Below, in pieces: positions 1,011-31,869 of a stretch of DNA of 39,235 bases. The stretch covers positions 1-39,235 of the IMG/VR virus record IMGVR_UViG_3300023245_001181; one strand, given 5' to 3'. The translations under genes were made by a program, and so were the position numbers. The notes under the pieces were generated by a model, which searched no databases, was not told the origin of the DNA, and was given only the letters and a program-made list of their open reading frames with translations. Source of the DNA: a virus. The number at the start of each line of letters is the position of its first letter. The stretch's first letter is position 1.

Positions 1011-1502
1011 ATGGCAAATACAGACAATAAGTGTGCAGATCTAGAAGTTAGAGATTATTATACTGAAAATGGATATGATGAAAAATCTTCTTTAGGTGAC
1101 TTATACGAACTCCAAGGTAAAACTCAGGATATGTATGCACAAAAACAAGGAAAGAAATCATTTGGCGAGTTCAACATCGGTGAAGTGATAGATTTTATGA
1201 TGATGAATAACCACGCGCTAGTAGATGAGCTTCACGAGATGGTAGATGCGGTTGGTGGAATTGATGATGGTGCTGGTAATGCAGCATGGAAGCCTTGGAA
1301 GAGTGCTAATGCTGAAATTAGAGAAAAGAAACTTTCTGACTTATCTGATAATGATATGAAAGAACTTAAGATGGAGTTTATAGATGCAATGCACTTCATG
1401 TTTAATAATGGGTTAGCTTTAGGCATTACATCTCAGGAGATTTACAATTATTACCTAAGTAAGAATGAAGAAAATTGGAACAGAGCCCGCACCGGATATT
1501 AA
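1011..1502 (+). CDS. Dimeric (all-alpha, MazG-like) dUTPase
   Basis: This 163-aa protein resembles the all-alpha NTP pyrophosphohydrolase fold of dimeric dUTPases, which convert dUTP to dUMP and pyrophosphate. This keeps uracil out of DNA and supplies dTMP precursors. Visible signatures are the acidic helix ALVDELHEMVDAVGG (Mg-binding E/D residues), the aromatic WKPWK segment, a second acidic helix EFIDAMHFMFNNGLALG, and a C-terminal KNEENWNRARTGY resembling the N-x-x-R-x-x-G-Y ending of the family. Length is right for a phage member. It lies directly upstream of the polymerase N-half and near the ribonucleotide reductase, a sensible nucleotide-metabolism context. A MazG-type NTP pyrophosphatase with another substrate is the main alternative. 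Confidence 0.78.
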   Translation: MANTDNKCADLEVRDYYTENGYDEKSSLGDLYELQGKTQDMYAQKQGKKSFGEFNIGEVIDFMMMNNHALVDELHEMVDAVGGIDDGAGNAAWKPWKSANAEIREKKLSDLSDNDMKELKMEFIDAMHFMFNNGLALGITSQEIYNYYLSKNEENWNRARTGY

Positions 1503-1551
1503 GTTATCATAGTTTTTTAGATATAATTAATAACCCTCATAAAAATAAAGA

Positions 1552-2967
1552 ATGCTATTAGATATTTCCCAACACGACAAGCAGATTTGGATTTCATATT
1601 ACAATTTAGAAGGTAAGACAAGGTTTAAGACTTATGATGTTCTACCTGAAGAAATGTATAATTGGGAAGTATGCAGGGAAGGTGATAAGAAAGCTGACAC
1701 TAAGATGAAAAATTGGGATGGTCGCCCAGTTAAGAAAGTGAAAGCCATGAGACTCAATAAGCACAGGATGATCCAATACATATCAGATATTGGGTTCTCT
1801 GATCGTGAATTGATTTTTGGTTATCATTTTCCACGAACATACTTTGTAGATATTGAAGTTGAAGTAAATGAGAATAATGATTTTACTGAGCCGTCCAAGG
1901 CAGCCACTCCAATCACCGCTATCTGTGTAGTAACACCCAACCGACAGTGCATAATATTAGCAACTAAACAACTTCCTAAAGGGGAGATTGCTAAAATTGA
2001 AAATCGTATCAACAATCACTTTAAAGATCTTGATGTCACATACCAATTTGAATTTAAGTGTTTCGATTCTGAATATGATATGTTATATACATTTTTGGAT
2101 AAGTTCGTAAAGAACTTCCCAATGATGACAGGTTGGAACTTCATTAAATTTGACTGGGCATATATTCGAAACCGAGCACGGAAGATCAACATCGATCCAA
2201 GAATTGCTTCACCTATCAAGGAACTAGGACAGACTAACGATGAATTTCCACTTCATGTAGGAATTATGGATTACATGGACATCTATAAAAAATGGGATCA
2301 CTCAGTTGACATCAAGGAAGACTTTAAACTTGACACTGTTGGCGAAGCAGTTTTAGGAATTAGGAAAGTTAAGTACGATGGCACTATTCAGGACATGTAT
2401 GAAAAGGAATATCCTAAGTACATCTTCTATAATGGAGTAGATACTATTCTTGTTCAGTTAATTCATGAAAGAATTAAAACGATGGAGATTGCATTAACAA
2501 TATCTCACTTAAGCCAAGTAACAGTATTCAAAGCAGGTTCTCCGGTTGCGGTAACAGAATCTTTAATCTGCCGAGCATTATTGGGTAAGGATTTAGTTAT
2601 GGCAAAGGATCCAGCTAAAGTATCAATTAAGACTGGGAAGTATGCAGGCGCATTTGTAAAACACCCTATTCCAGGACTTCACTCTGCTGTTGCTTGCTTC
2701 GACTTTGCATCGCTATATCCTTCGATAATGAGACAGATGAATGTATCACCTGAAAGTTTTATTGCTAAAGTGGCACCTGAAGAAAAAGATACTGAACTTG
2801 GACCAGATAGAATTGTAGCAATTAACGGTGCTGTCTATAGCACGGACACTTCTATTTTGAAAGAAATTCTAACTGATTTGTATGGCCAGAGAAAGACTTA
2901 TAAGAAGAAATCGTTTGAGCTTCAGACCCAAGCGTACGAGATGGAGAAAGCCATATCTAAGTCCTAG
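1552..2967 (+). CDS. 43A: DNA polymerase family B, N-terminal half (gp43A)
   Basis: This 471-aa protein is the N-terminal half of a T4 gp43-type replicative polymerase. The 3'-5' exonuclease motifs are intact: Exo I with D100-I-E102, Exo II around D201 (FIKFDWAYI), and Exo III YNGVD with D297. Polymerase motif A follows as DFASLYPSI with the catalytic Asp at residue 384. The frame then ends in the fingers helices (QRKTYKKKSF...) at TAG followed by TAA, before motifs B and C. The missing half is encoded at 15457-17094. Neither an intein half nor a splicing motif is visible at this C-terminus, so the halves probably associate non-covalently. Split gene 43 is known in some Aeromonas T4-like phages, also in the fingers region, but with the parts much closer together. 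Confidence 0.93.
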   Translation: MLLDISQHDKQIWISYYNLEGKTRFKTYDVLPEEMYNWEVCREGDKKADTKMKNWDGRPVKKVKAMRLNKHRMIQYISDIGFSDRELIFGYHFPRTYFVDIEVEVNENNDFTEPSKAATPITAICVVTPNRQCIILATKQLPKGEIAKIENRINNHFKDLDVTYQFEFKCFDSEYDMLYTFLDKFVKNFPMMTGWNFIKFDWAYIRNRARKINIDPRIASPIKELGQTNDEFPLHVGIMDYMDIYKKWDHSVDIKEDFKLDTVGEAVLGIRKVKYDGTIQDMYEKEYPKYIFYNGVDTILVQLIHERIKTMEIALTISHLSQVTVFKAGSPVAVTESLICRALLGKDLVMAKDPAKVSIKTGKYAGAFVKHPIPGLHSAVACFDFASLYPSIMRQMNVSPESFIAKVAPEEKDTELGPDRIVAINGAVYSTDTSILKEILTDLYGQRKTYKKKSFELQTQAYEMEKAISKS

Positions 2968-2994
2968 TAAGACATTTACTACAAACTTAAGCGG

Positions 2995-3002
2995 TATAAA
3001 TA
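2995..3002 (+). promoter_or_regulatory. TATAAATA, T4-late-promoter-like sequence
   Basis: The octamer TATAAATA is identical to the T4 late promoter core. It lies between the polymerase N-half and nrdJ, 130 nt before the nrdJ ATG, with the 3050-3098 inverted repeat in the would-be leader. It could be chance in AT-rich DNA. Confidence 0.3.
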
Positions 3003-3049
3003 TACTATAGATAATTTAACTCACGGAGACATTATCTAGCACAATCTTG

Positions 3050-3098
3050 CCACTTAAATGTAGCTATATGAAGAAATTCAAAGCATACATTTAAGTGG
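3050..3098 (+). repeat. 13-bp perfect inverted repeat (hairpin) upstream of nrdJ
   Basis: The arm CCACTTAAATGTA at 3050-3062 is exactly complementary to TACATTTAAGTGG at 3086-3098, with a 23-nt loop. The loop and right arm contain a tiny frame (ATG at 3069, reading MKKFKAYI then stop). The hairpin is followed by TTATTTT, so it may end the polymerase transcript. It could equally be a leader structure for nrdJ or a scar at the break in gene 43. Confidence 0.6.
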
Positions 3099-3132
3099 TT
3101 ATTTTAACTTTACCAAAAAGAAAATAATATAA

Positions 3133-5358
3133 ATGAAAATGAATGGAACGCGAATTTTATCTGACATTAAATTTTACAATGACTACTCGAAGTACAACGA
3201 GAAGTTAGAGCGAAAACAGACCTGGGATGAGAGGGTTGATAGTGTAATGGATATGCACCGTACAAATCCAAAGTTTAAAGAAGCTTTTAAGAACAAAGAA
3301 TTTGTTAAGATGTTTGATAGTGCAGTTAGTGCATATCAAGAGAAATTAGTATTAGCGTCTCAAAGATCTTTGCAGTTTAGCGGAGCACCTATTATGAAGC
3401 ATAACGCCAAGATGTACAATTGTACTGTATCATATTGTGATAGAACGGCAGTATTCCAGGAAGCTATGTATATGTTACTTTGTGGCTGTGGAGTTGGAAT
3501 GTCATTCCTAAAACCGTATGTTGCTAAACTGCCTACAGTATCTAAAAGAACAAACGGTACTAAGACATATGTAATTCAAGATTCTATTGAAGGTTGGTCA
3601 GATGCAGTTGGAGTATTAATGTCTTCATATTTTGATGCTGACCGTACATTCCCAGAATATAAAAATAGCGTTGTTCACTTTGATTATAGTCTAATAAGAC
3701 AAAGAGGATCTCTGATAGCTGGAGGATTTAAAGCACCAGGACATGAAGGACTTCAGCAGTCTTTAGAAAGAATAGAACGTCTATTAGAATCTTATATTAC
3801 AGTAGCAAGCATTAAGATGACTCCTATTATTGCATACGATATTTTGATGCATTGTTCTGATGCTGTGCTCAGCGGCGGAGTTAGGCGTTCAGCCTCAATT
3901 GCCTTATTCAGTCATGACGATGCGGAAATGATGAATGCAAAGACTGGAAATTGGTTCATGTCTAATCCACAGCGGGCAAGATCAAATAACTCTGTTGTAT
4001 TAGTAAAGGATGAGATTAGCAGAAGTGCATTTGATGAAATATTCAATTCGACTAAAGAGTTCGGTGAACCTGGATTTGTATTTTCAGAGTCTATTGAAGT
4101 TGTCTATAACCCATGTGTAGAAATAGGAATGGTCCCACGCACAATTGAAATGGTTAGCGGATGGCAAGTATGCAATTTAACAGAAATCAATGGTAGGAAG
4201 TGTGCTGATGCAGATGCATTCTTTAGAGCCTGTGCTGCTTCTGCCTTCATTGGAACACTTCAAGCATCGTATACTGATTTTAAATATCTGGCTCCAGAAA
4301 GTAAGGAGATATGTGACAATGAAGCTCTTATCGGTTGTTCGATTACAGGATTTATGAACAGCCCAAAGATTCTATTTGATCCAGAAATTCTACAGCGTGG
4401 TGCAACTATCATTAAAGAAGTTAATGCAATCGTAGCTGAGATGATCGGGATCAACCGAGCTGCAAGAACTACGTGCGTGAAACCTTCAGGAAATGCGAGC
4501 ATTCTCCTAGAAACTACTTCGGGTATTCATGGTGAACATTCTCCTACGTATTTTAGGATTATGCAAATGAATAAAGATGAAGAAGTTTCTAAATATCTTA
4601 TGTCTAAATATCCTGATCTTATTGAAGAATCTGTATGGTCTTCTCAGAATACTGACTACGCTCTGTTTATTCCAGTTAAAGCCGATAAAAAAACAATATT
4701 CAAATCTGAACTACTTGGCACAAAGCAATTAGAATACGTTAAGCTGGTTCAGCAGAACTGGGTTGAGCCTGGAACTAACATAGATCTTTGTATTATTCCT
4801 GAAGTTCGTCATAACGTATCTAATACTATTACTGTTGATGACTGGGAAGAAGTAAGAGAATATATCTGGAATAATAAGAAATGGTTCTCAGGAATTAGTC
4901 TTTTACCATTTGTAGGAGATAAAGTCTATAACCAAGCACCATTTACTGAAGTGCTTGATCCTAATGAAATCATTGAAAAATACGGTCAACCTTCTATGTT
5001 CGTATCTGGGATGATAGTTGACGCATTACACTTATTTGAGAACAACTTATGGAAGGCATGTGATTATTTAATGGATGCAGAACTTCCAATAGAAGGAACA
5101 CGACAGTCAGTATTACTTAAGAAGGATTGGTTAAGTAAAGCCAAGAAATTCGGAAGACGTCATTTTAAAGGTGTAGATGAATTAGTCTTCTGTATGAAAG
5201 ACGTTCACTTAGCACATAAGTGGATGAAGACAAGTAGATCTATTGCAAACTTGGACGTAACATCAATTTTAACTAAGATCAAGCCCAAATACGTTGAGGT
5301 GAACAAATTCTCTGCTGTTGCTTGTGCTGGTGGTTCATGTGAAATAGTAGCACTATAA
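3133..5358 (+). CDS. nrdJ: Adenosylcobalamin-dependent (class II, monomeric) ribonucleoside-triphosphate reductase
   Basis: This 741-aa protein matches monomeric class II reductases such as the Lactobacillus leichmannii enzyme, which is about 739 aa. These enzymes reduce ribonucleoside triphosphates to deoxy forms using coenzyme B12. Visible active-site elements are C97 in MYNCTVSY and C347 in VCNLTEIN (the redox pair), N326-x-C328-x-E330 in NPCVEIG (radical Cys with its Asn and Glu), the conserved RTTCVKPSGNASILL loop, and the C-terminal shuttle pair C731 and C736 in ACAGGSCEIV. There is no intein and no small-subunit gene nearby, consistent with a self-contained enzyme. It sits between the polymerase N-half and small late-type genes. 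B12 would have to come from the host or environment. Confidence 0.9.
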   Translation: MKMNGTRILSDIKFYNDYSKYNEKLERKQTWDERVDSVMDMHRTNPKFKEAFKNKEFVKMFDSAVSAYQEKLVLASQRSLQFSGAPIMKHNAKMYNCTVSYCDRTAVFQEAMYMLLCGCGVGMSFLKPYVAKLPTVSKRTNGTKTYVIQDSIEGWSDAVGVLMSSYFDADRTFPEYKNSVVHFDYSLIRQRGSLIAGGFKAPGHEGLQQSLERIERLLESYITVASIKMTPIIAYDILMHCSDAVLSGGVRRSASIALFSHDDAEMMNAKTGNWFMSNPQRARSNNSVVLVKDEISRSAFDEIFNSTKEFGEPGFVFSESIEVVYNPCVEIGMVPRTIEMVSGWQVCNLTEINGRKCADADAFFRACAASAFIGTLQASYTDFKYLAPESKEICDNEALIGCSITGFMNSPKILFDPEILQRGATIIKEVNAIVAEMIGINRAARTTCVKPSGNASILLETTSGIHGEHSPTYFRIMQMNKDEEVSKYLMSKYPDLIEESVWSSQNTDYALFIPVKADKKTIFKSELLGTKQLEYVKLVQQNWVEPGTNIDLCIIPEVRHNVSNTITVDDWEEVREYIWNNKKWFSGISLLPFVGDKVYNQAPFTEVLDPNEIIEKYGQPSMFVSGMIVDALHLFENNLWKACDYLMDAELPIEGTRQSVLLKKDWLSKAKKFGRRHFKGVDELVFCMKDVHLAHKWMKTSRSIANLDVTSILTKIKPKYVEVNKFSAVACAGGSCEIVAL

Positions 5359-15456: not shown

Positions 15457-17094
15457 ATGAGTGAAGATCTTGGAGCATTAGCCCTACAGAAACTTGAAGA
15501 AGTACAGAAAGAGGCTAGAAAATATTACTCATACGAACAAGCCGTCAAACTCACTCTTAATAGCATCTACGGGGCTTTTGGTAATGAGCATTTTTTTTTT
15601 TACAACGTAGATATAGCAGAAACTATAACACTTCAAGGTAAAGATGCAATTCTTTATAGTGAGGAACTAATCAACAAATACTTTACACATTATTGGCATA
15701 ACGATACTATAGCACATGAAGCTATGGGAGTCAAAGTCAAAGTTAAAGTTAAAGATCCTGTTGGGATCTATATTGATACGGATTCTATTGTTGGAAATTC
15801 AACAATCAGATTAAGTGATGGCAGGGAAATTTCAGTAAAAGATCTATATAATGAAGGAGTAGAGGATATGGGATCTACTTTAAACGGCCACGAATCAGTA
15901 TCGTGTAAAACTGGAGTACTAAACTGGTCCAAAGAAAAAGAACTTTATTACGTACCAGTAGCAAGAGTTATAAGACATAAAGTTTCAAAGAAGAAGTGGA
16001 AGCTTAAGACTAAGTCGGGTAAAGAAATCATTGTAACAAATGATCACTCTATGATAGTATTTAGAGACGGTATACAGCTTGAAATTAAACCAAGCAATAT
16101 ATCGTATACTGATAAAATACTAACTATTCTAAAGAGATCCGAACTACTAAACGAAGAATATACTATAGAAGAAATTGATACGATAGAATGTATCGGAGAT
16201 TTTGATGATGAATATGTATATGACATTGAAGTAGATGATGATACGCACACATTTATAGCAAATGATATACTTGTTCATAATTCAATCTATATGAAATTCG
16301 AAGAAGTAATTGAAAGCACAGATTGGGAAGGTGACGAAAAGACATTCATTCTAAAGCTATACAATGCTAGGTTAAAGGGATTTATCGAAAAGATAATGCA
16401 AAAATATGCAGACGATAATAATGCGGAGAACTTCTTGAGTTTTGAACTAGAATCAATTGCGAAGAATGCAATATGGTTAGCCAAGAAAAATTATATGCAG
16501 AATATAGTTTGGCATGATCCTGATCTCCACTACGATGAATTGACTAAAATTAGTGCAAAGGGATTTGATATCATTAAAGGTTCGGCTCCGTTATTCGCTC
16601 GTGAGAAACTGAAAACTCTAATTACTTTTATATTCTCAAAGCCGAAGTTCCAAATGAAAGAGTTTGCTGAAATTCTTAAAGAAATGAAGAGGGAGTTCAA
16701 ATTAGCAAACATAGATCATATCTGTATGTCAAAGAATGTAAACAATTACCAAAAATACATTCTTAATGACTACGAAGAATTTGAATTTGGTTTAAGATGT
16801 CCAATGGGTGTAAGAGCAGCTGGGTATCACAATTACCTTCTTAATAATTCTGAGCATAAGAAGAAATATCAATGTGTAGGTAATGGTGAAAAGCTAAAGA
16901 TATATCATAGTACCGATAAAGCATGTGACATATTTGCTTACGCGCCAGGTGACTACCCATACGAAATTGCACCACCTATCGATTACGATGTACAGTTTGA
17001 AAAGACAATTCTGGATCCAATCAATAGAGTTCTCAAGGCTATGAGTTATAAGGGATTTAACCGCAATTTGATTTATGTGACTGGAGTATTTTAA
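15457..17094 (+). CDS. 43B: DNA polymerase family B, C-terminal half (gp43B) containing a mini-intein
   Basis: The 545-aa precursor begins in the fingers (MSEDLGALALQKLEEVQK). It carries motif B KLTLNSIYGAFG at residues 31-42 and motif C, whose YIDTD/SIYMKF sequence is interrupted by a 166-aa intein at residues 110-275. The palm and thumb follow. Without the intein the part is 379 aa; added to the 471-aa N-half this gives 850 aa, near T4 gp43 (898 aa). Both halves are needed for activity: motif A is in the N-half and motifs B and C are here. The ATG start gives no overlap with the N-half. The N-half gene is 12.5 kb upstream. An 11-T run at 15591-15601 encodes the FFF after motif B. Confidence 0.93.
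   Translation: MSEDLGALALQKLEEVQKEARKYYSYEQAVKLTLNSIYGAFGNEHFFFYNVDIAETITLQGKDAILYSEELINKYFTHYWHNDTIAHEAMGVKVKVKVKDPVGIYIDTDSIVGNSTIRLSDGREISVKDLYNEGVEDMGSTLNGHESVSCKTGVLNWSKEKELYYVPVARVIRHKVSKKKWKLKTKSGKEIIVTNDHSMIVFRDGIQLEIKPSNISYTDKILTILKRSELLNEEYTIEEIDTIECIGDFDDEYVYDIEVDDDTHTFIANDILVHNSIYMKFEEVIESTDWEGDEKTFILKLYNARLKGFIEKIMQKYADDNNAENFLSFELESIAKNAIWLAKKNYMQNIVWHDPDLHYDELTKISAKGFDIIKGSAPLFAREKLKTLITFIFSKPKFQMKEFAEILKEMKREFKLANIDHICMSKNVNNYQKYILNDYEEFEFGLRCPMGVRAAGYHNYLLNNSEHKKKYQCVGNGEKLKIYHSTDKACDIFAYAPGDYPYEIAPPIDYDVQFEKTILDPINRVLKAMSYKGFNRNLIYVTGVF
15784..16281 (+). mobile_element. Mini-intein in DNA polymerase motif C
   Basis: The 166-aa element starts at Ser (SIVGNSTIRLSDGREISVKD, a block A with Ser in place of Cys). 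It has a block B with T-N-D-H (IIVTNDHSMIV), block F YDIEVDDDTHTF and block G ILVHN, and is followed by Ser+1. Removing it restores YIDTDSIYMKF, the catalytic motif C. There is no room for a LAGLIDADG or HNH endonuclease, so it is a mini-intein and depends on splicing for polymerase function. The catalytic-site location matches the known preference of inteins for conserved active-site positions. Confidence 0.92.
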
Positions 17095-19427: not shown

Positions 19428-19990
19428 TGTTCAAGTGGCTAATTGTATTTCTGTTCTTTCCTCTTTGGGCATCTGGCCAATTTTTTCATCAAATACCAGA
19501 CTGCTATAATGATATAGAACCTGTTCAGTATAACATTGAACAAAATCCAGTTTTAGAATATTCTTACGAAATTGTTGGTGGTACAATATTATCAACTGAT
19601 GAAGGCGGAGTTTTAGTTGACTGGCTTTCAGCCGGCCAGCTTATCGTAATCAGTACTAGCGATTTAGGATGTGCTTCTAATTCAACATTGATCATGGAAT
19701 TAATTCCATGCAATGAAACTACATTCTATGTACCTAACACGTTTACTCCGAATAATGATCTTATAAATGACAGCTTCACCCCTAAAGGTACTAACTACAA
19801 GTATTATGAAATGTCGGTTTACAACCGCTGGGGAGAGCAAGTTTACTTCACTCGTAGCATTATGAATGGATGGGATGGTACATTCAAAGGTAGATTATGT
19901 CCTAGTGATGTGTATGTCTATCTAATTGTCTACCTAGATTACAAGAATTACTATCAACCAATTAGTGGCAAGTTAATCCTTATGAGGTAA
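19427..19990 (+). CDS. Secreted protein with T9SS type B C-terminal sorting domain
   Basis: This 187-aa protein has a signal peptide (MFKWLIVFLFFPLWASGQ). A small Ig/PKD-like segment follows (SYEIVGGTILSTDEGGVLV, then DWLSAG). From about residue 103 it has a full gliding-motility-type C-terminal domain: NTFTPNNDLINDSFTPKG, YYEMSVYNRWGEQVYFT, GWDGTFKGRLCPSDVYVYLI, ending GKLILMR. This is the type B sorting signal of the Bacteroidetes type IX secretion system (F-T-P-N-x-D-x-x-N-D; Y-N-R-W-G; W-D-G-x-x-x-G). The protein should pass Sec and then the host T9SS to the cell exterior. It is the last gene of the overlapping cassette. The T9SS call is strong; its role for the phage is unknown. Confidence 0.85.
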   Translation: MFKWLIVFLFFPLWASGQFFHQIPDCYNDIEPVQYNIEQNPVLEYSYEIVGGTILSTDEGGVLVDWLSAGQLIVISTSDLGCASNSTLIMELIPCNETTFYVPNTFTPNNDLINDSFTPKGTNYKYYEMSVYNRWGEQVYFTRSIMNGWDGTFKGRLCPSDVYVYLIVYLDYKNYYQPISGKLILMR

Positions 19991-20031
19991 ACAAAGTACC
20001 CAACTTTCCATATAAAACAAAAACTACTTAT

Positions 20032-20985
20032 ATGGCAGGTAAACAATACTCCTTCACCGAATTGAATAAAGAGATGAACAAAATCTCTGAATATGGTGAT
20101 ACAATGGATAAGTCAACTATTTCAGAAATTGACCACTACATCCCAACAGGCAATTATATGTTAAATATGTGTTTGACTGGATCCTTATTTAAAGGCTATC
20201 CAAACAACAGAGCCGTGGCTCTCGCTGGCATTTCAGGAGCTGGCAAAACCTTTTTGACACTTAATGGTGTTAGAGAAGCACAGCAAATGGGTTACAGTGT
20301 AGTATATTATGACTCAGAAAACGCAGTAGATAGGACCCTTGTTGAAAAGTTTGGAATTGACACAAAGTTATTCAGATACGAACCGTGTAATACTGTTCAG
20401 GAATTTAGAACTTCTGTAACTGCTATTACTGATGTTCTAATTGAACAGAAGAATAAGGGCATTGAACTACCAAAGATCATGATTATTTTAGATTCAGCTG
20501 GTAACTTAGCAACCCAGAAAGAAATTGATGATGCTAAATCCGGAAGTAATAAAGCAGATATGACAAGAGCAAAGCTTCTGAAATCAACATTTAGAATTCT
20601 AATGACCAAACTCGGAATTTGTAAGATTCCTCTCATATTCACAAATCATACTTATATGACTACTGATTTATTTGCTAAGCAGGTCGGAGGAGGAGGCTGT
20701 CTTGTTCCTGGGTCTCTAGTTCTAATGGCAGATGACACATATTCAAAAATAGAGAATATCAACGATGGTGATTTAGTTAAGACATTATCTGGAGATAAGA
20801 AAATTGAAAAGACATGGACCTTTGATAAACCTACTTTTAATGTAGAATTTGAAGATGGTAGTGAACTTACATGTTCAGAAGATCACAGATTCTTTATTGG
20901 CAATGCTGATGATGATCCGTTGGATGATAACAACTGGGTTTTTGTAAAAGATCTAAACAAAGGTTCAGAAATATCTCAATATTGA
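20032..20985 (+). CDS. uvsX: UvsX recombinase N-terminal half fused to split intein N-half
   Basis: This 317-aa protein has residues 1-222 as the ATPase half of a T4 UvsX/RecA-type recombinase. Walker A is GISGAGKT at 66-73, YYDSENAVDR follows, and Walker B is IMIILDSAG. The sequence reaches the loop-2 glycines QVGGGG and then switches at C223 into an intein N-half, stopping with TGA. The remaining recombinase is encoded at 21994-22662, after a free-standing endonuclease gene. Trans-splicing would give GGGG-SGPEYAAS and a recombinase of about 404 aa (T4 UvsX is 391 aa). Start spacing fits an upstream CATATAAAA element. Confidence 0.93.
   Translation: MAGKQYSFTELNKEMNKISEYGDTMDKSTISEIDHYIPTGNYMLNMCLTGSLFKGYPNNRAVALAGISGAGKTFLTLNGVREAQQMGYSVVYYDSENAVDRTLVEKFGIDTKLFRYEPCNTVQEFRTSVTAITDVLIEQKNKGIELPKIMIILDSAGNLATQKEIDDAKSGSNKADMTRAKLLKSTFRILMTKLGICKIPLIFTNHTYMTTDLFAKQVGGGGCLVPGSLVLMADDTYSKIENINDGDLVKTLSGDKKIEKTWTFDKPTFNVEFEDGSELTCSEDHRFFIGNADDDPLDDNNWVFVKDLNKGSEISQY
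20698..20982 (+). mobile_element. Split intein, N-half (95 aa) in UvsX
   Basis: It begins CLVPGSLVLMADDTYSKIEN (block A with Cys1). A block B-like ELTCSEDHRFFIG follows, and it ends EISQY at a TGA. No block F or G is present on this polypeptide; these are on the 40-aa C-half at 21994-22113. The insertion point is the conserved glycine loop (DNA-binding loop 2) of the recombinase. Together the halves total 135 aa, a minimal splicing domain with no endonuclease. Confidence 0.92.
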
Positions 20986-20995
20986 GAGGTTAGTA

Positions 20996-21013
20996 GTGGA
21001 GGGATCCCTCCAC
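20996..21013 (+). repeat. 18-bp perfect palindrome between uvsX N-half and endonuclease gene
   Basis: GTGGAGGGATCCCTCCAC is a perfect palindrome, GC-rich in an AT-rich genome. As RNA it folds to a 7-bp stem with a GATC tetraloop. It lies 10 nt after the uvsX-N stop and 4 nt before the endonuclease promoter-like element. No T tract follows, so it is not a typical terminator; it may block read-through, stabilise the transcript end or bind a dimeric protein. Confidence 0.7.
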
Positions 21014-21017
21014 CACC

Positions 21018-21026
21018 GATATATAA
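21018..21026 (+). promoter_or_regulatory. Late-promoter-like element GATATATAA for the endonuclease gene
   Basis: An exact GATATATAA ends 15 nt before the endonuclease ATG. Its position just after the palindrome suggests the endonuclease is transcribed separately from uvsX. T4 homing endonuclease genes are often under late promoters. Confidence 0.55.
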
Positions 21027-21041
21027 TCTAAACATCTTAAT

Positions 21042-22046
21042 ATGAGTCATTCTTCCTCACGACATATAAATTCTACACGTACTATAAAAGAGTTTAAAAT
21101 TGTTTTACATGAATGTTTTAAAAACGTTAACTTACAGAATTCTGCTTTTATTGAGGATTTATTTTTATATATGTCTAAACTACAAATTAAAGGTCATGTT
21201 CATTTTATAGATACATGTTCTGCTTATTTTAAAACTAGACGAAATGGGAAGGGTGTATCTAAAATATCTAAAGACTATTGGTTATCTATGGGATGGTCTC
21301 TCGATGAAGCAATTAGATTTGTATCTGATCTTCAGAAGAAACGATCGCACTTTAATATAGATTATTGGTTAAACAAGGGGCTTACTCTCGAAAGGGCTAA
21401 ATTAGAAGTCAATCGAGTACAATCATATAATTCTAATAAGAGATATGAAAAATATACAAAGGCAGAGATATCCGAGCAGTCGGTATGGTCTAAGAAGCAT
21501 TGGCTAAATAAAGGTTTATCAGAAAAAGAAGCGGATTATGAAGTGAGTAAACGCAACTATAGCAAACGAGAATTTTGGAGTAGTGATTCTGAGTACGAAG
21601 AAATAAAAAAAATCATAGGCAAAAAAACTTCAGACTTTATAAAAGAAAATCCAGAATTATATAGCTCTTTTTTTGGATCGGTTTCAAAGGAAGAGATAGA
21701 ATTTTTTAAATACACCAAGTTAAAAATTCCAGGCATATTGCATAAACAGTTCATAGTTAATGTAAAAAAATCAAAAGAGTTAAATCCGGGTATTGTCAAA
21801 TACGATGGGTATATTAAGACCAGCCTTGGTATAATATTGATTGAATACGATGGCTTATATTGGCATAACCAAACCTATGATGAAATAAAAGACTCTGTTA
21901 CGCTTGGCATACGAGATGATATTCTAGGAATACTACGAATCTCATGCAAACAATACAAAACTAATAAGAAAAACATTATAAAATTAATTAATCATGGAAT
22001 TGAAAAAATTAAAAGTAAAGAAAGTAACAGAATTAAAATCTACTAA
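21042..22046 (+). CDS. Vsr-like homing endonuclease between the uvsX halves
   Basis: This 334-aa basic protein has at least three N-terminal repeats of about 40 residues built on (Y/H)-W-L-(S/N)-x-G-(L/W)-(S/T)-x-x-E-A (DYWLSMGWSLDEA, DYWLNKGLTLERA, KHWLNKGLSEKEA). These are likely DNA-recognition modules. The C-terminal domain (YDGYIKTSLGIILIEYDGLYWHN ... RDDILGILRISCKQYK, in two parts) resembles the very-short-patch-repair (Vsr/EDxHD) nuclease fold used by the endonucleases of fractured split-intein loci. It would cut intact uvsX alleles and spread the split. Its last 53 nt overlap the C-half gene in another frame. A GATATATAA element precedes it. The fold is inferred from motifs. Confidence 0.75.
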   Translation: MSHSSSRHINSTRTIKEFKIVLHECFKNVNLQNSAFIEDLFLYMSKLQIKGHVHFIDTCSAYFKTRRNGKGVSKISKDYWLSMGWSLDEAIRFVSDLQKKRSHFNIDYWLNKGLTLERAKLEVNRVQSYNSNKRYEKYTKAEISEQSVWSKKHWLNKGLSEKEADYEVSKRNYSKREFWSSDSEYEEIKKIIGKKTSDFIKENPELYSSFFGSVSKEEIEFFKYTKLKIPGILHKQFIVNVKKSKELNPGIVKYDGYIKTSLGIILIEYDGLYWHNQTYDEIKDSVTLGIRDDILGILRISCKQYKTNKKNIIKLINHGIEKIKSKESNRIKIY

Positions 22047-22113
22047 AGTACACGATTTAACTGTAGCAGATGTTCAGCATTATATAACTAACAACGGAGT
22101 AATACATCATAAC
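21994..22113 (+). mobile_element. Split intein, C-half (40 aa) in UvsX
   Basis: The segment MELKKLKVKKVTELKSTKVH leads into DLTVADVQHYITNNGVIHHN, a block F/G pair. The penultimate His and final Asn are followed by Ser+1 of the extein. A 40-aa C-half with a highly charged start is typical of natural split inteins, whose halves assemble by opposite charge; the N-half end is rather acidic (NADDDPLDDNN). Confidence 0.92.
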
Positions 22114-22662
22114 TCTGGACCTGAGTATGCAGCATCTATTATATTATTTCTAGGTAAAGCTAAATTGAAAGATAAAGCTGAAGGCGATGGTAAAGAACAA
22201 ACTGGAATTATAGTTGCAGCTCGACCTAATAAGAATAGATTTGCAAAACCAAAAACAGTAAAATTCCACATTTCCTTTAACAAGGGTATGAATCCTTATG
22301 TAGGGTTAGAAGAGTATATCAACTGGGAGAACTGTAAAATTGGAAGAGGTAAATTTCTAACTCCCAATGACTACAAAAAACTTACTGAAGCAGGAAAAGA
22401 AGAATGTATAGAACATATTTATACTGAAGATAGTACATCAAAGACATTATATTTCCAGGCTAAAGAAACATCCCGTCAAATATGCGTAGCTCATTTGAAT
22501 TGCATGGTTCCTACTAACGAATTGTTCACGTCTAGGGTTATAACTCGAGATGTTTTAGAATTGCTAGAACCGATTATTGCAAAAGATTTTAATTATGGGA
22601 CAGACGAACTTAGCCAAGAGGACTTCAGTGATATGTTAGAAGATGGTGTCGAAACAGATTAA
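21994..22662 (+). CDS. uvsX: Split intein C-half fused to UvsX C-terminal half
   Basis: This 222-aa protein has residues 1-40 as the intein C-half and 41-222 as the C-terminal UvsX domain (SGPEYAASIILFLGKAKLKD, FNKGMNPYVGLEEYINW, acidic tail ending VETD). These parallel the T4 UvsX region after its GGGTGP loop. The ATG lies within the end of the endonuclease gene. No upstream sequence encodes further recombinase, so this polypeptide must join the N-half at 20032 to make active recombinase. Its 3' end overlaps the next gene by 20 nt. Confidence 0.92.
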   Translation: MELKKLKVKKVTELKSTKVHDLTVADVQHYITNNGVIHHNSGPEYAASIILFLGKAKLKDKAEGDGKEQTGIIVAARPNKNRFAKPKTVKFHISFNKGMNPYVGLEEYINWENCKIGRGKFLTPNDYKKLTEAGKEECIEHIYTEDSTSKTLYFQAKETSRQICVAHLNCMVPTNELFTSRVITRDVLELLEPIIAKDFNYGTDELSQEDFSDMLEDGVETD

Positions 22663-22948
22663 CAAAGACAAGCTAAAAGTAAAATACGTCATTGGTAGTT
22701 ATGCAGTACTACCAAAGTACCCAGACGCTGGTGACGTATTCTATGAATTTTTTACGAACTATTGCTCGCGTAAAGGCGATAGGCGTATTAAGTTCACAAC
22801 CTCTTCTATTGAGAAAAAATATCCAACGATGTCCAAAGAACGAATGGAGCACATTATCGAATATTTGGTTATGCATGAACTGATAGAAGAGGTTAGTCAA
22901 GCAGCAGCTTATACTACGTACAAGATTATAAAAAATCCTTACGAGTAA
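22643..22948 (+). CDS. Small conserved-looking protein, winged-helix-like, unknown function
   Basis: This 101-aa protein starts inside the last 20 nt of the UvsX C-half gene. It looks compact and mostly helical, with IKFTTSSIEKKYPTMSKERM and a following helix (EHIIEYLVMHELIEEV) then a short beta end (AAYTTYKIIKN). That arrangement recalls winged-helix domains. It lies between uvsX and the helicase, the place where T4 has the unrelated gene 40. No family was recognised. Confidence 0.5.
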   Translation: MVSKQINKDKLKVKYVIGSYAVLPKYPDAGDVFYEFFTNYCSRKGDRRIKFTTSSIEKKYPTMSKERMEHIIEYLVMHELIEEVSQAAAYTTYKIIKNPYE

Positions 22949-24277: not shown

Positions 24278-24712
24278 ATGGCAATAGACAAAATATTTAA
24301 TAACACCTATGGCGAACAAGAGTTCGATAACAGTACGATGTCATTTAAGGTAGAAGCTTCATACGAAGATACTACTGATCCAGAAGATAAAATACATTAT
24401 GAGATATTAATGGATCAGGTTGACTCCTTAATTAAAAAGAGCGAGTTTAAAAATCTAAGTAAAGTAACACATGCTGGTGTAACTAAGAAATTGAATAAAG
24501 TTCAGATTAACCAAGTCTTCTTCTTTATTATTAGTAAGATCGGTAAAAATTATAAACGAGTTGAGTTATTCGGTGCACTATCAGATTACTTCGATGTATT
24601 TCCGAATAAGTTCTACAGTTCACTCTCAAACAAATTTAAGGATGAACTGATCCAAGAATTAGATTCTAAGTATGACATTATCGCAAAGAAAAATATAAGA
24701 AAATTGTTCTAA
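24278..24712 (+). CDS. Hypothetical protein between gp41 and gp47
   Basis: This 144-aa protein of unknown function starts 5 nt after the helicase stop. The N-terminal 45 residues are acidic and likely flexible. The rest is helical and basic (SLIKKSEFKNLSKVTHAGV, KLNKVQINQVFFFIISKIG, KRVELFGALSDYF). The position next to gp41 allows a helicase-associated or transcription co-factor role, but no motif supports one. Confidence 0.5.
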   Translation: MAIDKIFNNTYGEQEFDNSTMSFKVEASYEDTTDPEDKIHYEILMDQVDSLIKKSEFKNLSKVTHAGVTKKLNKVQINQVFFFIISKIGKNYKRVELFGALSDYFDVFPNKFYSSLSNKFKDELIQELDSKYDIIAKKNIRKLF

Positions 24713-24713
24713 G

Positions 24714-24815
24714 ATGGCTAAGCGCATATGGATGGTCTCGGATTCGCATTTATTTCATAATGTATCAATATATACATTATGGGATATACATTTAAGGATA
24801 TTAGGAACATTATAA
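24714..24815 (+). pseudogene. Broken 5' fragment of gene 47
   Basis: An ATG two bases after the previous stop reads MAKRIWMVSDSHLFHNVSIY and then TLW. This aligns with the start of the intact gp47 1 kb downstream (KRIWLLSDTHLGCRSNSVLW), including the metallophosphatase D-x-H motif. The similarity stops about where the next gene, a homing endonuclease, begins (24779), and the frame ends at 24815. It is the original 5' end of gene 47, cut off by insertion of the endonuclease gene together with a substitute 5' end. The two 5' ends differ clearly, so they come from different gene 47 lineages. Confidence 0.7.
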
Positions 24816-25741
24816 TTAAATCTAACGGTAGACCATATTCTTTAAATTCTAAAGTATATACTGACATTGTTAAGACTTGGATTTTAGAAAATATAATTGG
24901 AAACTCTACTATAAACGGTAAACTTTGGTGTATTGCACATCATTTAGAATACGTTCCAACATGTGCAAATGTTAAATGTAATAAGTACACTAGGTATCAT
25001 AATAAATTTAAAGAGGGTTTTAGAAAATTTTGTGGAGATCCAAGCTGCAGTGCTAATCATAAAGAAACGAAAGAAAAATATAAGAAAACTTCATTGAAAA
25101 ACTGGGGTACTGAAAATCCATTAGAAAATAAAGATTTCCGGGAAAGATGCAAGTCTATAGTAGAAGCAAAATACGGTAGTAAGTATGCAATGCAATCTAA
25201 AGCATGTAAAGAAAAATATAAGAAAACTTCATTGAAAAACTGGGGTGCTGAAAATCCACTACAGAATAATGAAATTAGAAAGCACTGTAGAAATACATTG
25301 CTTAAAAATTATGGAGTCGATGTTCCAGCCAAAAATATTCATATCATGAAAAAAATTATGAATAGTAGGAAAATTAGAACCATAGCGTTTAAAAATAGTG
25401 GCATATATTATCAAGGATCTTACGAATTGCATTTTTTAGAATTAATGGAACAGCATAATATGTTAGCATTAGTAAGTAATGGTTTGAGTTTTAAATACGA
25501 TTATTTAGATAAGGTAGATAGACTCTATGTTTCAGATTTTTTCATCAGTAATTTGAATGAAGTGATAGAAATAAAGTCTAAGTGGACATACAATAGAAGG
25601 GGATCTGATATGGTTTTAGAAAATCAAAATTTAGCAAAAATGGCAACTGTAATTAATGAAGGTAGGAATTTTAAGTTTCTAATTGGTAAGGTTAAAATTG
25701 AAGAGTATGTAATATCCTTAAATGTACATTATGCAAAGTAA
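24779..25741 (+). CDS. Homing endonuclease with zinc finger, repeats and PD-(D/E)XK-like domain
   Basis: This 320-aa basic protein has a four-cysteine zinc-binding candidate in CANVKCNK and FCGDPSCSANH near residues 60-95. Repeated DNA-binding units follow (KYKKTSLKNWGTENPLENKD and KYKKTSLKNWGAENPLQNNE, with a related NTLLKNYGVDVPAKN). A C-terminal nuclease-like domain comes last: QGSYELHFLELM ... YVSDFFISNLNEVIEIKSKW, matching the D ... E-x-K pattern of PD-(D/E)XK enzymes. It sits exactly between the broken and intact starts of gene 47, as expected of a mobile intron-less endonuclease. Its 3' end overlaps the intact gp47 start by 11 nt. Confidence 0.75.
   Translation: MGYTFKDIRNIIIKSNGRPYSLNSKVYTDIVKTWILENIIGNSTINGKLWCIAHHLEYVPTCANVKCNKYTRYHNKFKEGFRKFCGDPSCSANHKETKEKYKKTSLKNWGTENPLENKDFRERCKSIVEAKYGSKYAMQSKACKEKYKKTSLKNWGAENPLQNNEIRKHCRNTLLKNYGVDVPAKNIHIMKKIMNSRKIRTIAFKNSGIYYQGSYELHFLELMEQHNMLALVSNGLSFKYDYLDKVDRLYVSDFFISNLNEVIEIKSKWTYNRRGSDMVLENQNLAKMATVINEGRNFKFLIGKVKIEEYVISLNVHYAK
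25070..25258 (+). repeat. Two direct copies of a 51-bp segment, 138 nt apart, in the endonuclease gene
   Basis: Bases 25070-25120 and 25208-25258 match at all but one position; the first 39 are identical. The 138-nt period equals 46 codons, so the repeat is a duplicated DNA-recognition module kept in frame. Confidence 0.85.
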
Positions 25742-26834: not shown

Positions 26835-29000
26835 ATGAAGCTCCACTCGATAGAATTTAAGAACTTCGCAAGTTATGGCAATAGAGTCCAAAAAATAGAC
26901 TTTGAAGATGTTGGCAATTTGTACTTAGTGCTAGGAGAAAATGGAGCTGGCAAATGTCTTGCAAAAGATACTTCCATTAAAGTTAGCATCGATGACCCAG
27001 TTCTTCGAAATCAGTTTTTAGAGTTTATTAAGAATAAGAAAGAATGTAAAATAGAAGTACATAAGTACTTTAAGCCAGACTCAAAAACAGAATGTAATAT
27101 AGGTGATCTGTATGAGTTTAACATGCTTAATAATAGTGTAAGTGATGGAGCATTTGAAGTATGTACACGGCATGGTAAGAAAAAAGTCTTGGGCGTTGAC
27201 ATAACGGCGTACGATAGCATTCAGCACAAACTAACAACTGATACCGGCAAAACTATAGCAAGTTCGCCAGATCATCTGTTCTTTTTTAATGACTGGAAAA
27301 AAGCCAAACTATTTAAAGTCGGAGATTGTATAGAGACTGAAGATGGTATAGAGCATATAGTTGAAAATAAAATAATAGATGGTACTGCCGATCTATATGA
27401 CATTGAAGTAGATGAAGTTAAAGAATTTTATGCAAACAGATTTGTTTCTCATAACTCGTCCCTTGCTAAAGTCATAACTTATCTCTGTTATGGTAAAACT
27501 GAAGGTGCAAATATTAAAGATTTACCTAACCGTGTTAATGGTAGTATGTGGGGTAGAGTCATTATGACTTGTAAGAACAACCGAGTTGAGATTGAGAGAG
27601 GTGTAAGTCCAAGTATATTCACAGTCAAAGTTAATGACGTTGAATATGATGTAGCAGGCAAGACTAATCTTCAAGACTTCTTAGAAACTGAAATATTCGA
27701 TATTCCATACCATGTGTTTAAGAATGTAATTATATTATCTGTAAACGACTTTAAGTCATTTATTACAATGTCCACAAGCGACAAGAAGCAAATCGTTGAT
27801 AGAATTTTTGGGTTCTCTGCTATTAACGAAATGAAAGAGCTTGTTAAGAATAAGAGGAAGTTAATAGTTGAAGACATTAAAGTATTTGAAGAAGAGATCA
27901 AAACGCTCACAGATTCTATTGAGTCTGTAAAGCTGAAGCTTGATGAATTTGAAAAAGCTACTAATGATAAAAATACTGCGGAGATAAAGACTCTGAAGAC
28001 TAGACTATTTGAACTTAATGAAAATAAGAAAAAGCTAGTAACAGCAAATGAAAGGGTTAGATCTATGATCGTTTCATCTACAGAAGAAGCTAAACGCAAA
28101 GTTCAAAAGCAACAAGATATTAAGAACGATATTGCTTCTCACAACAGAGCATTAAAGTTATATGAAAACAATTCGTGTCCAACGTGCAATGCATCTTTAG
28201 AATCTGAATTTCACGAAAAAGAAGAAGATAAACACAAGTGTGCAATAGCCACACTTGGAACTAATCAAGAAACTATTAAAGCAGAAGTATTAATTGCTGA
28301 GGAAAATCTACAAACTGCAAGAGATAACAATAGAAAGATTATAACTCGTGCTGCTCAGCTTGATACTCAAATGGAACAGATTAAAACTGAGCTTATAAAG
28401 ATATCAGAAAATAAAGGTCAAAATTCTATACATTTACGTGATCTAATTGATGACTTTGATGTTAAGAAAGAATCAAGCCTAAGTGGTAAAACTTCTATTG
28501 AAGGAAAGAATTATTACCTATCATTACTTGAAACTATTGTAGGTGAGGATGGTATTAAGAACCTAGCTGTCAAATCTATATTACCATCACTTAACAATCA
28601 CGTAATGCTGATGGGTAAAGAGATGGGTATACCGTTTGGGGTAGTATTTGATGAGAAGTTTAATTGTGTACTCTATCATTTGGGCGAGGAGATAAATCCC
28701 AAGACACTATCAACAGGTGAGAAGAAGAAAGCAGATTTCGTAATTATTATGGCATTAATAAAAATGATAAAGACAAGATTCCCTGGATTGAATATTCTGT
28801 TTTTGGACGAAATATTTTCATCTATAGATTCTTCTGGCATATACCATATCATTAATATCCTTCATCAGACCATCAAAGAAGCTAAGATCAACACATTTGT
28901 AATAAATCATACAGTATTACCATCAGAATATTTTGATAAAAGACTTGAAATTAGCAAAGACTCCGGCTTTAGTGAATTTACTGTTGAAGACATTGGATAA
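26835..29000 (+). CDS. 46: Recombination ATPase gp46 (SbcC/Rad50-like) containing a mini-intein
   Basis: The precursor is 721 aa; after removal of a 167-aa intein (residues 41-207) it is 554 aa, very near T4 gp46 (560 aa). Walker A is GENGAGK/SSLAK, interrupted by the intein directly after the catalytic Lys40. Coiled-coil arms flank a zinc hook CPTC at 448-451. The ABC signature LSTGEKKKAD is near residue 625 and Walker B ILFLDEIFSS near 655. It works with gp47 in end resection. Without splicing the ATPase has no P-loop. It starts 3 nt after gene 47, and the TAA stop forms part of a GATAAATA sequence. Confidence 0.93.
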   Translation: MKLHSIEFKNFASYGNRVQKIDFEDVGNLYLVLGENGAGKCLAKDTSIKVSIDDPVLRNQFLEFIKNKKECKIEVHKYFKPDSKTECNIGDLYEFNMLNNSVSDGAFEVCTRHGKKKVLGVDITAYDSIQHKLTTDTGKTIASSPDHLFFFNDWKKAKLFKVGDCIETEDGIEHIVENKIIDGTADLYDIEVDEVKEFYANRFVSHNSSLAKVITYLCYGKTEGANIKDLPNRVNGSMWGRVIMTCKNNRVEIERGVSPSIFTVKVNDVEYDVAGKTNLQDFLETEIFDIPYHVFKNVIILSVNDFKSFITMSTSDKKQIVDRIFGFSAINEMKELVKNKRKLIVEDIKVFEEEIKTLTDSIESVKLKLDEFEKATNDKNTAEIKTLKTRLFELNENKKKLVTANERVRSMIVSSTEEAKRKVQKQQDIKNDIASHNRALKLYENNSCPTCNASLESEFHEKEEDKHKCAIATLGTNQETIKAEVLIAEENLQTARDNNRKIITRAAQLDTQMEQIKTELIKISENKGQNSIHLRDLIDDFDVKKESSLSGKTSIEGKNYYLSLLETIVGEDGIKNLAVKSILPSLNNHVMLMGKEMGIPFGVVFDEKFNCVLYHLGEEINPKTLSTGEKKKADFVIIMALIKMIKTRFPGLNILFLDEIFSSIDSSGIYHIINILHQTIKEAKINTFVINHTVLPSEYFDKRLEISKDSGFSEFTVEDIG
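26955..27455 (+). mobile_element. Mini-intein in the Walker A loop of gp46
   Basis: This 167-aa element runs from C41 (CLAKDTSIKVSIDDPVLRNQ) to a final H-N (NRFVSHN) with Ser+1. Block B is IASSPDHLFFF and block F is LYDIEVDEVKEFYA. Excision rebuilds GENGAGKSSLAK. It has no endonuclease domain. Its size is almost that of the polymerase intein (166 aa), but the two are clearly different in sequence. Confidence 0.93.
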
Positions 29001-29991: not shown

Positions 29992-31869
29992 ATGAACAAG
30001 CTTAACGAAGGACAGACTCAAGTATATGCAGACGGGCATGTTGATCCACAGTATGGAGTCAATACCGGAGCGCCATATTTGAATAATCCACCACAACAAC
30101 TTCTAGACATTGCCACCGAATTCTTTAAGAGCGGTAAGTCTGAAGCACAAGTATTAGCAATCTTAGTAGGGATGGGCACTAAACAACAACTTGCTCTTTC
30201 TGCAATTCAAGCATTAAGAGGGCGGGGGCCAATGACAGAAACACAACAAAAAAATCATACAAATATGAAATTCACACTCGTTGATCTATACGAAAATGTG
30301 GTGAACACAATCGATAAGCTTGAGACTTTATCTGCAGATAAGTCTAGAGTATCTTATTCAACTAAGCAAGCTAAAGATCTTCTTGAAAGCGCTTTAGGTA
30401 TGTTCCCAGAAATGACTATTAACTCTAATATCATTGCTAAATTAACTACGGAAGAAATTGCGACTATAAAAAGTCAAGATGATCCAAGAGCAACTTGGCT
30501 AACTTTAGTAGATGAAAAAGTTACTCCAGTTTTAAAATACAATATCGCAAAGGCTATTCATAACACTTCTGCTATTCACGATTGGGTAAAGCCAATCAGT
30601 GAACTAAGAGGATATATTGATAATATGTATGCAACCCATACTTTTTCATTTAAAGTAAATGAAGCTGTATTAAGTATTGGAACTCGTAACAATCCGCTAG
30701 ATGGCAAATTAGCTGTTGAATTAACAACACTTCTTAACGAAACTGAAGATGTAATTAAAGCTGGCTTTGAAAGCATAGCTGCTAAGAATCCTTGGTCAGC
30801 TGAGTGTAAAGCAATCCTCAACGAAATGAAAGCTGAAGCGCAAGGCGCAGACCAAGCAAGAGCAGTTGTTCTAAAAACATTTACACCAATCCTTACGGAA
30901 GGGACCACTGTGATTTTTAATCTTCACGGTTCAACCTTTGGATTTGATGGAACTGAAGTAACAGAAGCTAACGTTACCGATTCGCGATTCGGACAAGTAA
31001 GAGAAGGATTGGAAATGTTTAAACAATCAGGAAATTCATTAGTACTATTCGGTGAAGCTGAAAGCGCACTTAAAATTGACTTAACAGAAGGCACAATTGG
31101 TTTAGGTAAAATTGATCTATCTGAGAAAACATCCCAAGAAATTAAAGAATCATTACTTGCGAGTAAATTCTTTAGTGCACGTAACGCTTGGGAAGCAGAT
31201 AAAGTTGCAGCTATGATAGAACATTTAGACATGGTCGCTGAAATGGACACAGCATTATCACTTACAAGTACAGAGTTCTTAAATGTGTATCTTACTATGT
31301 TAGCTGTTGAAAGTAACGGTGGAGTATGGATGCACAAGGTAAACCCAGCAATGAGTTTAAACGAAATGAAATTCTATCCAACTGCAACTAAAGCACTAAA
31401 AGAAGCTAAAGACTTTATTGGATATGATGCAACTTCATATCTATCTAAAAGTTTAATAGCAGAAGGTGAGGCTTCAGCAATCGTTGAACACAAACGAACT
31501 GTTATTGATAGCGAAATAAGCTTCTTAGAAGAAAAGAAAGAAGTTATTACTGCTGCTATTAAACGAATTGGTATAAGCGAAGAGCTAACTGAAGCACTTG
31601 GACTTGTCGAAGGAGCTCTATCTAAAAAAGAACAAGAACTTCAAGCAACATATATCGTTGAAAAAAAAACTAAGCGTGATTATCTAAACGATGGTTATGC
31701 GGAAGCTATAATGAGTATTGATAGTGGAGCGTTTAAAAAAGGCCAAGAGGTTATGGTAAATGCTGAAGAATATTCTTCATTGGGTGATGATGGTTTGATT
31801 GATGTAGTTGATGCAAATACTATGGAATCAGAATACATTGAAAGAGGAAAGCTTAAGGTTAAAATTTAA
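29992..31869 (+). CDS. Large putative head/virion protein
   Basis: This 625-aa protein begins MNKLNEGQTQVYADGHVDPQ; L-N-E|G fits the gp21-type cleavage rule (L/I-x-E followed by a small residue), so it may be processed during head maturation. Most of the body is helical with alternating small beta segments (ILTEGTTVIFNLHGSTFGFD). Residues 500-570 are predicted coiled coil (DSEISFLEEKKEVITAAIKR, ELTEALGLVEGALSKKEQEL). The C-terminal 50 residues (FKKGQEVMVNAEEYSSLGDD) look like a small SH3-type barrel. It is the last gene before a strong terminator. No T4 counterpart was recognised. Confidence 0.5.
   Translation: MNKLNEGQTQVYADGHVDPQYGVNTGAPYLNNPPQQLLDIATEFFKSGKSEAQVLAILVGMGTKQQLALSAIQALRGRGPMTETQQKNHTNMKFTLVDLYENVVNTIDKLETLSADKSRVSYSTKQAKDLLESALGMFPEMTINSNIIAKLTTEEIATIKSQDDPRATWLTLVDEKVTPVLKYNIAKAIHNTSAIHDWVKPISELRGYIDNMYATHTFSFKVNEAVLSIGTRNNPLDGKLAVELTTLLNETEDVIKAGFESIAAKNPWSAECKAILNEMKAEAQGADQARAVVLKTFTPILTEGTTVIFNLHGSTFGFDGTEVTEANVTDSRFGQVREGLEMFKQSGNSLVLFGEAESALKIDLTEGTIGLGKIDLSEKTSQEIKESLLASKFFSARNAWEADKVAAMIEHLDMVAEMDTALSLTSTEFLNVYLTMLAVESNGGVWMHKVNPAMSLNEMKFYPTATKALKEAKDFIGYDATSYLSKSLIAEGEASAIVEHKRTVIDSEISFLEEKKEVITAAIKRIGISEELTEALGLVEGALSKKEQELQATYIVEKKTKRDYLNDGYAEAIMSIDSGAFKKGQEVMVNAEEYSSLGDDGLIDVVDANTMESEYIERGKLKVKI

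Follow-up and report, generated by a model that had tools for sequence, protein, structure and literature searches.

A uvsX recombinase gene fractured by a split intein and an endonuclease-type gene, probably restored by protein trans-splicing

In IMG/VR virus record IMGVR_UViG_3300023245_001181, of which positions 1 to 39,235 were analysed here (39,235 nt, hereafter the window), the recombinase gene uvsX is very probably a fractured gene, interrupted in its loop-2 codons by a split intein and a free-standing homing endonuclease, restored by protein trans-splicing and spreading by homing. The anatomy of the locus, the precision of the insertion, its conservation, its scattered distribution and a late-promoter motif are read directly from the DNA, and from them we infer splicing, cleavage, homing and repression. 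In the proposed mechanism, the UvsX halves would be translated as separate proteins, and the intein halves would associate, excise themselves through Cys1, the penultimate His, the terminal Asn and the +1 Ser, and ligate the exteins into a 404-residue recombinase. The nuclease, produced from a late promoter of its own, would cut the uncut uvsX of co-infecting phages, and repair off the fractured allele would copy the entire 1.4-kb insert. Beside the late promoter the exon end recurs as a C-rich inverted copy, a possible operator through which the nuclease would repress itself. The comparative evidence best supports a reading in which the broken UvsX is trans-spliced and the element homes into intact uvsX.

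Anatomy of the fractured locus

Three open reading frames on the + strand make up the locus (20032–20985, 21042–22046 and 21994–22662), the three-gene layout that an initial annotation of the window had proposed. The first begins with the UvsX N-extein (20032–20697, residues 1–222), which comprises Walker A and the ATPase core and reaches the loop-2 Gly run, matches UvsX in PHROGs (PHROG 97, E = 8e-48) and RecA in Pfam (E = 1e-13), aligns to intact UvsX and ends in ...KQVGGGG, with residue 222 closing at base 20697. It continues directly into the 95-residue intein N-part (20698–20985, stop codon included), which spans C223 to SQY and carries Cys1 and the block B sequence SEDH. The third reading frame opens with the 40-residue intein C-part (21994–22113, M...VIHHN), containing blocks F and G and ending H-H-N, and passes at 22114 into the Ser of the UvsX C-extein (22114–22662, residues 223–404), which begins Ser-Gly-Pro and aligns to intact UvsX; PHROGs identifies this gene as a recombinase (families 18112, E = 3e-16, and 97). 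When joined, the exteins give a protein of 404 residues; in alignments with the intact UvsX of two other loci (L022 and L023) its junction is free of gaps. The initial annotation had put the uninterrupted product, joined at the loop-2 glycines, at about 404 residues. The nuclease gene (21042–22046) lies between the halves, and the third gene starts inside its end, the two sharing 53 nt (21994–22046).

Empty sites and spread of the element

Searches of IMG/VR yielded 80 uvsX loci and 14 nuclease loci. About 70 of these are intact uvsX genes in which residue 222 runs straight into residue 223 without an insert, the uncut junction that the initial annotation had suggested looking for in related phages. 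The three-part layout recurs in 15 contigs besides the window (about 9 distinct sequences, several of them near copies), with inserts of 1.35–1.43 kb that differ between loci in length and phase. The closest approach to a clean empty-site pair is L006 and L065, whose extein DNA is 93–95% identical and whose flanks are 87–95% identical, while a precise 1,419-bp insert is present in one only. In the bacterial genome contigs searched, a single uvsX relative was found.

In a UvsX tree built from 42 proteins, joined or intact, the ten fractured loci of this type are intermixed with intact ones, with 8 changes of state, at least 6 of them forced by well-supported branches, and a single clade of fractured loci is rejected (approximately unbiased test, p = 2.5e-7). 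Sisters of which one has the element and the other lacks it are the window and L023, L007 and L022, L006 and L065, L015 and L087, and, with weak support, L044 and L097. The UvsX of L015 is close to the group of the window, yet its intein and nuclease are the most divergent, and between L042 and L044 synonymous divergence is lower in the intein and nuclease than in extein N; both patterns fit lateral movement of the element. From this scatter and from the empty-site pairs, which fit homing, horizontal spread into empty uvsX alleles is the probable history. An alternative, that the element is ancient and vertically inherited and that its patchiness reflects many precise losses, is improbable. 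Each change on the tree may be a loss, and the element trees do partly track the UvsX tree, but codon-exact losses would need to be frequent, and the divergent intein and nuclease of L015 and the low synonymous divergence between the elements of L042 and L044 also count against it.

Conservation and splicing competence of the split intein

The segments that had been assigned earlier to intein blocks A/B (from C223 to a stop) and to blocks F/G (40 residues ending H-N, then Ser) are both recognised as intein parts. The N-part matches NCBIfam intein_Nterm (E = 4e-5, 24.4 bits, marginally below the cutoff of 24.5), the C-part matches intein_Cterm (E = 0.03, slightly under the cutoff) and the joined intein matches Pfam Intein_splicing (E = 2e-8, 34.4 bits, cutoff 35.8). 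Among solved structures, the joined intein best matches the gp41-1 split intein (PDB 6QAZ, E = 1.9e-5), which is likewise divided at the customary boundary of N and C halves; identity to it is low, and the window intein differs in the lengths of its parts (IN 95, IC 40 residues) and in its placement within loop 2 of a RecA-family protein. The residue set of the standard Cys1 mechanism is complete in the window, and Cys1, the block B His, the block F Asp, the penultimate His, the terminal Asn and the +1 Ser/Thr are kept in all 17 fractured loci examined, which form two very distant groups. Ratios of nonsynonymous to synonymous substitution (dN/dS) of 0.10–0.16 for the intein N-part and 0.12–0.19 for the nuclease, where unsaturated, were obtained, and all parts of the locus, both intein halves and the nuclease included, are under purifying selection.

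Loop 2 is the DNA-binding loop of RecA-family recombinases. The break falls in its Gly run, which is continuous in all uncut alleles, and the unspliced halves are therefore unlikely to work. A non-covalent two-chain recombinase that needs no splicing would resemble the split NrdA of phage Aeh1, which functions as two peptides with MobE between its halves (PMC10448857, PMC2988022). For UvsX we consider such an arrangement very unlikely, given the position of the break and the complete set of intein catalytic residues that both halves retain, under purifying selection, at every fractured locus. Removal of the gap at the RNA level, by a group I or group II intron or by translational bypass, with the intein-like segments incidental, is scarcely credible. 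The exon end is complementary to a motif downstream, superficially like the guide pairing of an intron; a scan of 19900–22800 against Rfam, however, gave no credible match to group I or II intron covariance models, precise intein borders and the conservation of the intein codons would be purposeless, and insert length and phase vary among loci. Decay of uvsX into a pseudogene with another protein performing recombination, or an error of assembly, could be entertained in so far as the data are comparative and the window is a fragment, but is already strongly contradicted by the further contigs with the same layout, frames that are open throughout, low dN/dS and the absence of a second uvsX from long contigs.

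Since 15 other contigs share the layout and some 70 intact alleles pass directly from residue 222 to 223, chance or an assembly artefact, the latter raised as a possible objection in the initial annotation, is excluded on comparative grounds. A second intact uvsX, the other objection raised there, was found in none of the fractured-uvsX contigs of 387, 192, 170 and 161 kb, and the 39-kb window holds one uvsX gene.

The nuclease between the halves

All full-length IMG/VR relatives of the nuclease are positioned between uvsX halves, and the gene stands free between the intein halves in ten distinct loci, the window included. Its 334-residue product has an N-terminal half built of repeats of the form YW..KG....A, which presumably bind DNA, and a C-terminal domain of predicted PD-(D/E)xK type; across the alignment E218, D255, E268-x-D270, H275 and D280 are conserved. 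The protein has no match in Pfam, NCBIfam or PHROGs, and a profile search of the PDB with the alignment gave none. Confidence of the AlphaFold (AF2) model is good (pLDDT, the predicted local distance difference test, 84 for the whole protein and 88 for the domain), and Foldseek searches with the full model and with the nuclease domain returned mostly PD-(D/E)xK-type nucleases, all weak and none individually significant, with no match specific to Vsr or I-Bth0305I. L018, a distant relative (32% identity over 99 residues), matches DUF559 above the cutoff. The modelled fold and this match support membership of the PD-(D/E)xK superfamily. The earlier term 'Vsr-like' is thus apt at the level of the superfamily only, and the EDxHD/Vsr family is a possible placement.

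Control region of the nuclease gene

The spacer 5′ of the nuclease gene contains three elements, all on the + strand. Immediately 3′ of the N-half stop is a perfect 18-nt palindrome, GTGGAGGGATCCCTCCAC (20996–21013, local fold z −2.9); it is overlapped by the C-rich motif CCCTCCACCACC (21006–21017), an inverted copy of the exon end GGAGGAGGAGG, and followed by the promoter element ATATATAA (21019–21026), 23 nt 5′ of the nuclease ATG. No intrinsic terminator was found 3′ of the UvsX N-half.

Eight copies of ATATATAA occur on the + strand of the window, 6 of them in spacers 5′ of gene starts: those of the nuclease and of five structural-region genes, at 29992, 33408 (the portal gene), 35116 (the gene for the head protease), 37011 (the major capsid gene, at a distance of 78 nt) and 38801. 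Short spacers contain it 5 times against 0.43 expected in shuffles, and none of 1000 shuffles reached as many. Enrichment of TATATAAT over the whole window was not above chance, and only its placement before late genes is. Because ATATATAA also precedes structural-region genes, the nuclease, although inside a replication operon, is predicted to carry the phage's own late-type promoter, which gives an identity to the promoter-like element noted earlier.

The G+C-rich palindrome of the window ends about 28 nt 5′ of the nuclease ATG. It was considered as a start-codon trap like that of mobE and rejected: the start codon is uncovered, and the fold of the whole spacer is no better than those of shuffles. 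A hairpin does bury the nuclease start codon in L042, L044, L048, L002 and L004 and in several Straboviridae; it often encloses TATAAATA, as is known from I-TevI and Aeh1 mobE (PMC2988022).

The core of the C-rich motif, CCnCC, lies 3′ of the N-half stop in 10 of 10 spacers of this element type and repeats, in inverted form, the Gly codons at the end of extein N. The window copy is the best inverted match among 972 windows; that of L007, L008 and L015 is likewise the best in its own locus, with weaker values at other loci. In the window and in L006, L014, L042, L044 and L048 it stands shortly 5′ of the TATA element, and it is absent from the fractured loci with GIY-YIG-type nucleases. Control through hairpins, late promoters and an operator is known for T4 I-TevI and Aeh1 mobE; the I-TevI operator shares 15 of 20 nt with the homing site of that enzyme and overlaps its late promoter (PMC2988022). 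The window shares with these systems a late promoter for a nuclease gene within an early or middle unit and, with I-TevI, a candidate homing-site-like sequence beside that promoter. It differs in that its hairpin leaves the start codon uncovered, its motif is inverted and repression is a candidate function. Together with the I-TevI precedent, the motif suggests, tentatively and as something we would rather doubt than assume, that the nuclease represses itself through a homing-site mimic, binding the C-rich copy of the exon end and stopping its own late transcription once uvsX has been fractured. The motif may instead pair as RNA with the exon end. Should self-repression be real, it would be an I-TevI-like autorepression of independent origin, in a nuclease family that is unrelated and is associated with a split intein.

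Some considerations weigh against the fractured-gene interpretation as a whole. Cleavage by the nuclease is a step we infer, because sequence searches of Pfam and the PDB gave no match for the protein itself and its Foldseek matches are weak. The window is a 39-kb fragment, so that a second uvsX may lie elsewhere in its genome. Losses of the element could explain part of the scatter, as some changes on the tree may be losses, and the operator idea may reflect a resemblance in sequence and nothing further.

Comparison with known fractured genes

Dassa et al. reportedly described, in 2009, genes fractured by split inteins together with free-standing endonucleases, the host genes being gp41, NrdA, NrdJ and IMPDH. 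The window locus has the same make-up: a phage gene for an enzyme of DNA metabolism is split at a functional site into two open reading frames whose product, once joined, matches uncut homologues, each half bears an intein part, and a nuclease gene lies between them. It departs from that type in its host gene, uvsX, and in a nuclease that is only a possible member of the EDxHD family. Its sequence thus adds uvsX to the host genes of this known arrangement.

Other phages are fractured in uvsX as well. Straboviridae (Yersinia TG1, Salmonella CF-SP2, Escherichia HY03, Klebsiella Lion_ER11, Vibrio EniLVp02 and others) have a split intein at the same site (GG/C...HN/TG, slashes marking intein boundaries) with IN of 96–97 and IC of 35 residues and a nuclease between the halves, but the nuclease is of Seg/GIY-YIG type with NUMOD3 repeats. 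Proteus Pm5461, Enterobacter UFV01, Pseudomonas PspYZU05, Shigella SP21535, Shewanella Thanatos-1 and Vibrio VmeM-32 are further cultured phages with a fractured uvsX; in the records of named phages the halves are annotated as separate pieces, and among all these cultured phages a HintC domain is noted in the VmeM-32 record only. In the Prevotella Lak-B megaphages, whose records are without annotation, uvsX is likewise in three parts, and in the same position lies a nuclease homologous to that of the window (30% identity, E = 4e-16), the frame of which is open only if TAG is read as Gln. Salicola phage SCTP-2 also has an intein at the loop-2 site of UvsX, but a contiguous mini-intein of 134 residues without a nuclease; a second contiguous mini-intein, of 143 residues, occupies the P-loop of the same UvsX (L110, 2067–4037). 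No paper pairing UvsX with 'split intein' was found in the literature searched, and among papers on UvsX and inteins, most judged by title, none concerned a fractured uvsX. The initial annotation, which knew of no UvsX case, agrees with this search of papers but calls for a qualification, as fractured uvsX is present in the records of named phages.

Other inteins and mobile genes

Three inteins occur in three replication or recombination genes within this one 39-kb stretch. The family B DNA polymerase is encoded in two genes 12.5 kb apart (1552–2967 and 15457–17094), the second with a contiguous mini-intein (YIDTD/S...HN/SIY); split DNA polymerases occur in other phages, since PHROGs has separate families for the parts. 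A gp46/SbcC-like gene (26835–29000) carries a contiguous mini-intein in its Walker A region (GAGK/C...HN/SS). A second free-standing gene of homing-endonuclease type (DUF7487) lies at 24779–25741, its start codon within a perfect hairpin (CATAATGTAT...ATACATTATG, z −2.4, in 24700–24800). Just 5′ of it, from 24714, the 5′ end of the gp47/SbcD-like gene that follows is present as a stray extra copy (MAKRIWMVSDSHLF), as if the insertion had re-made the start of that gene. In L128 (IMGVR 3300037295_000360), a relative with a fractured uvsX, a second gene is fractured (1432–4807): a UvsW-type DECH helicase, split VDE/C...N/CH, whose gap holds a 117-residue open reading frame without a family match.

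Implications for phage recombination

The 'uvsX_1/uvsX_2' annotations of named phages most likely denote one spliced protein, and the split inteins (IN 95–99, IC 35–40 residues) are new ones for protein engineering. A single loop-2 site hosts a contiguous mini-intein, split inteins with GIY-YIG-type nucleases and split inteins with an unrelated nuclease. In uvsX there is thus a natural series for asking how fractured genes arise, with a well-documented set of empty sites and a control region open to testing. In T4-like phages, homing relies on the UvsX recombinase (PMC2988022). Where UvsX is returned only by trans-splicing, both recombination of the phage and the spread of the element itself would hinge on the split intein.

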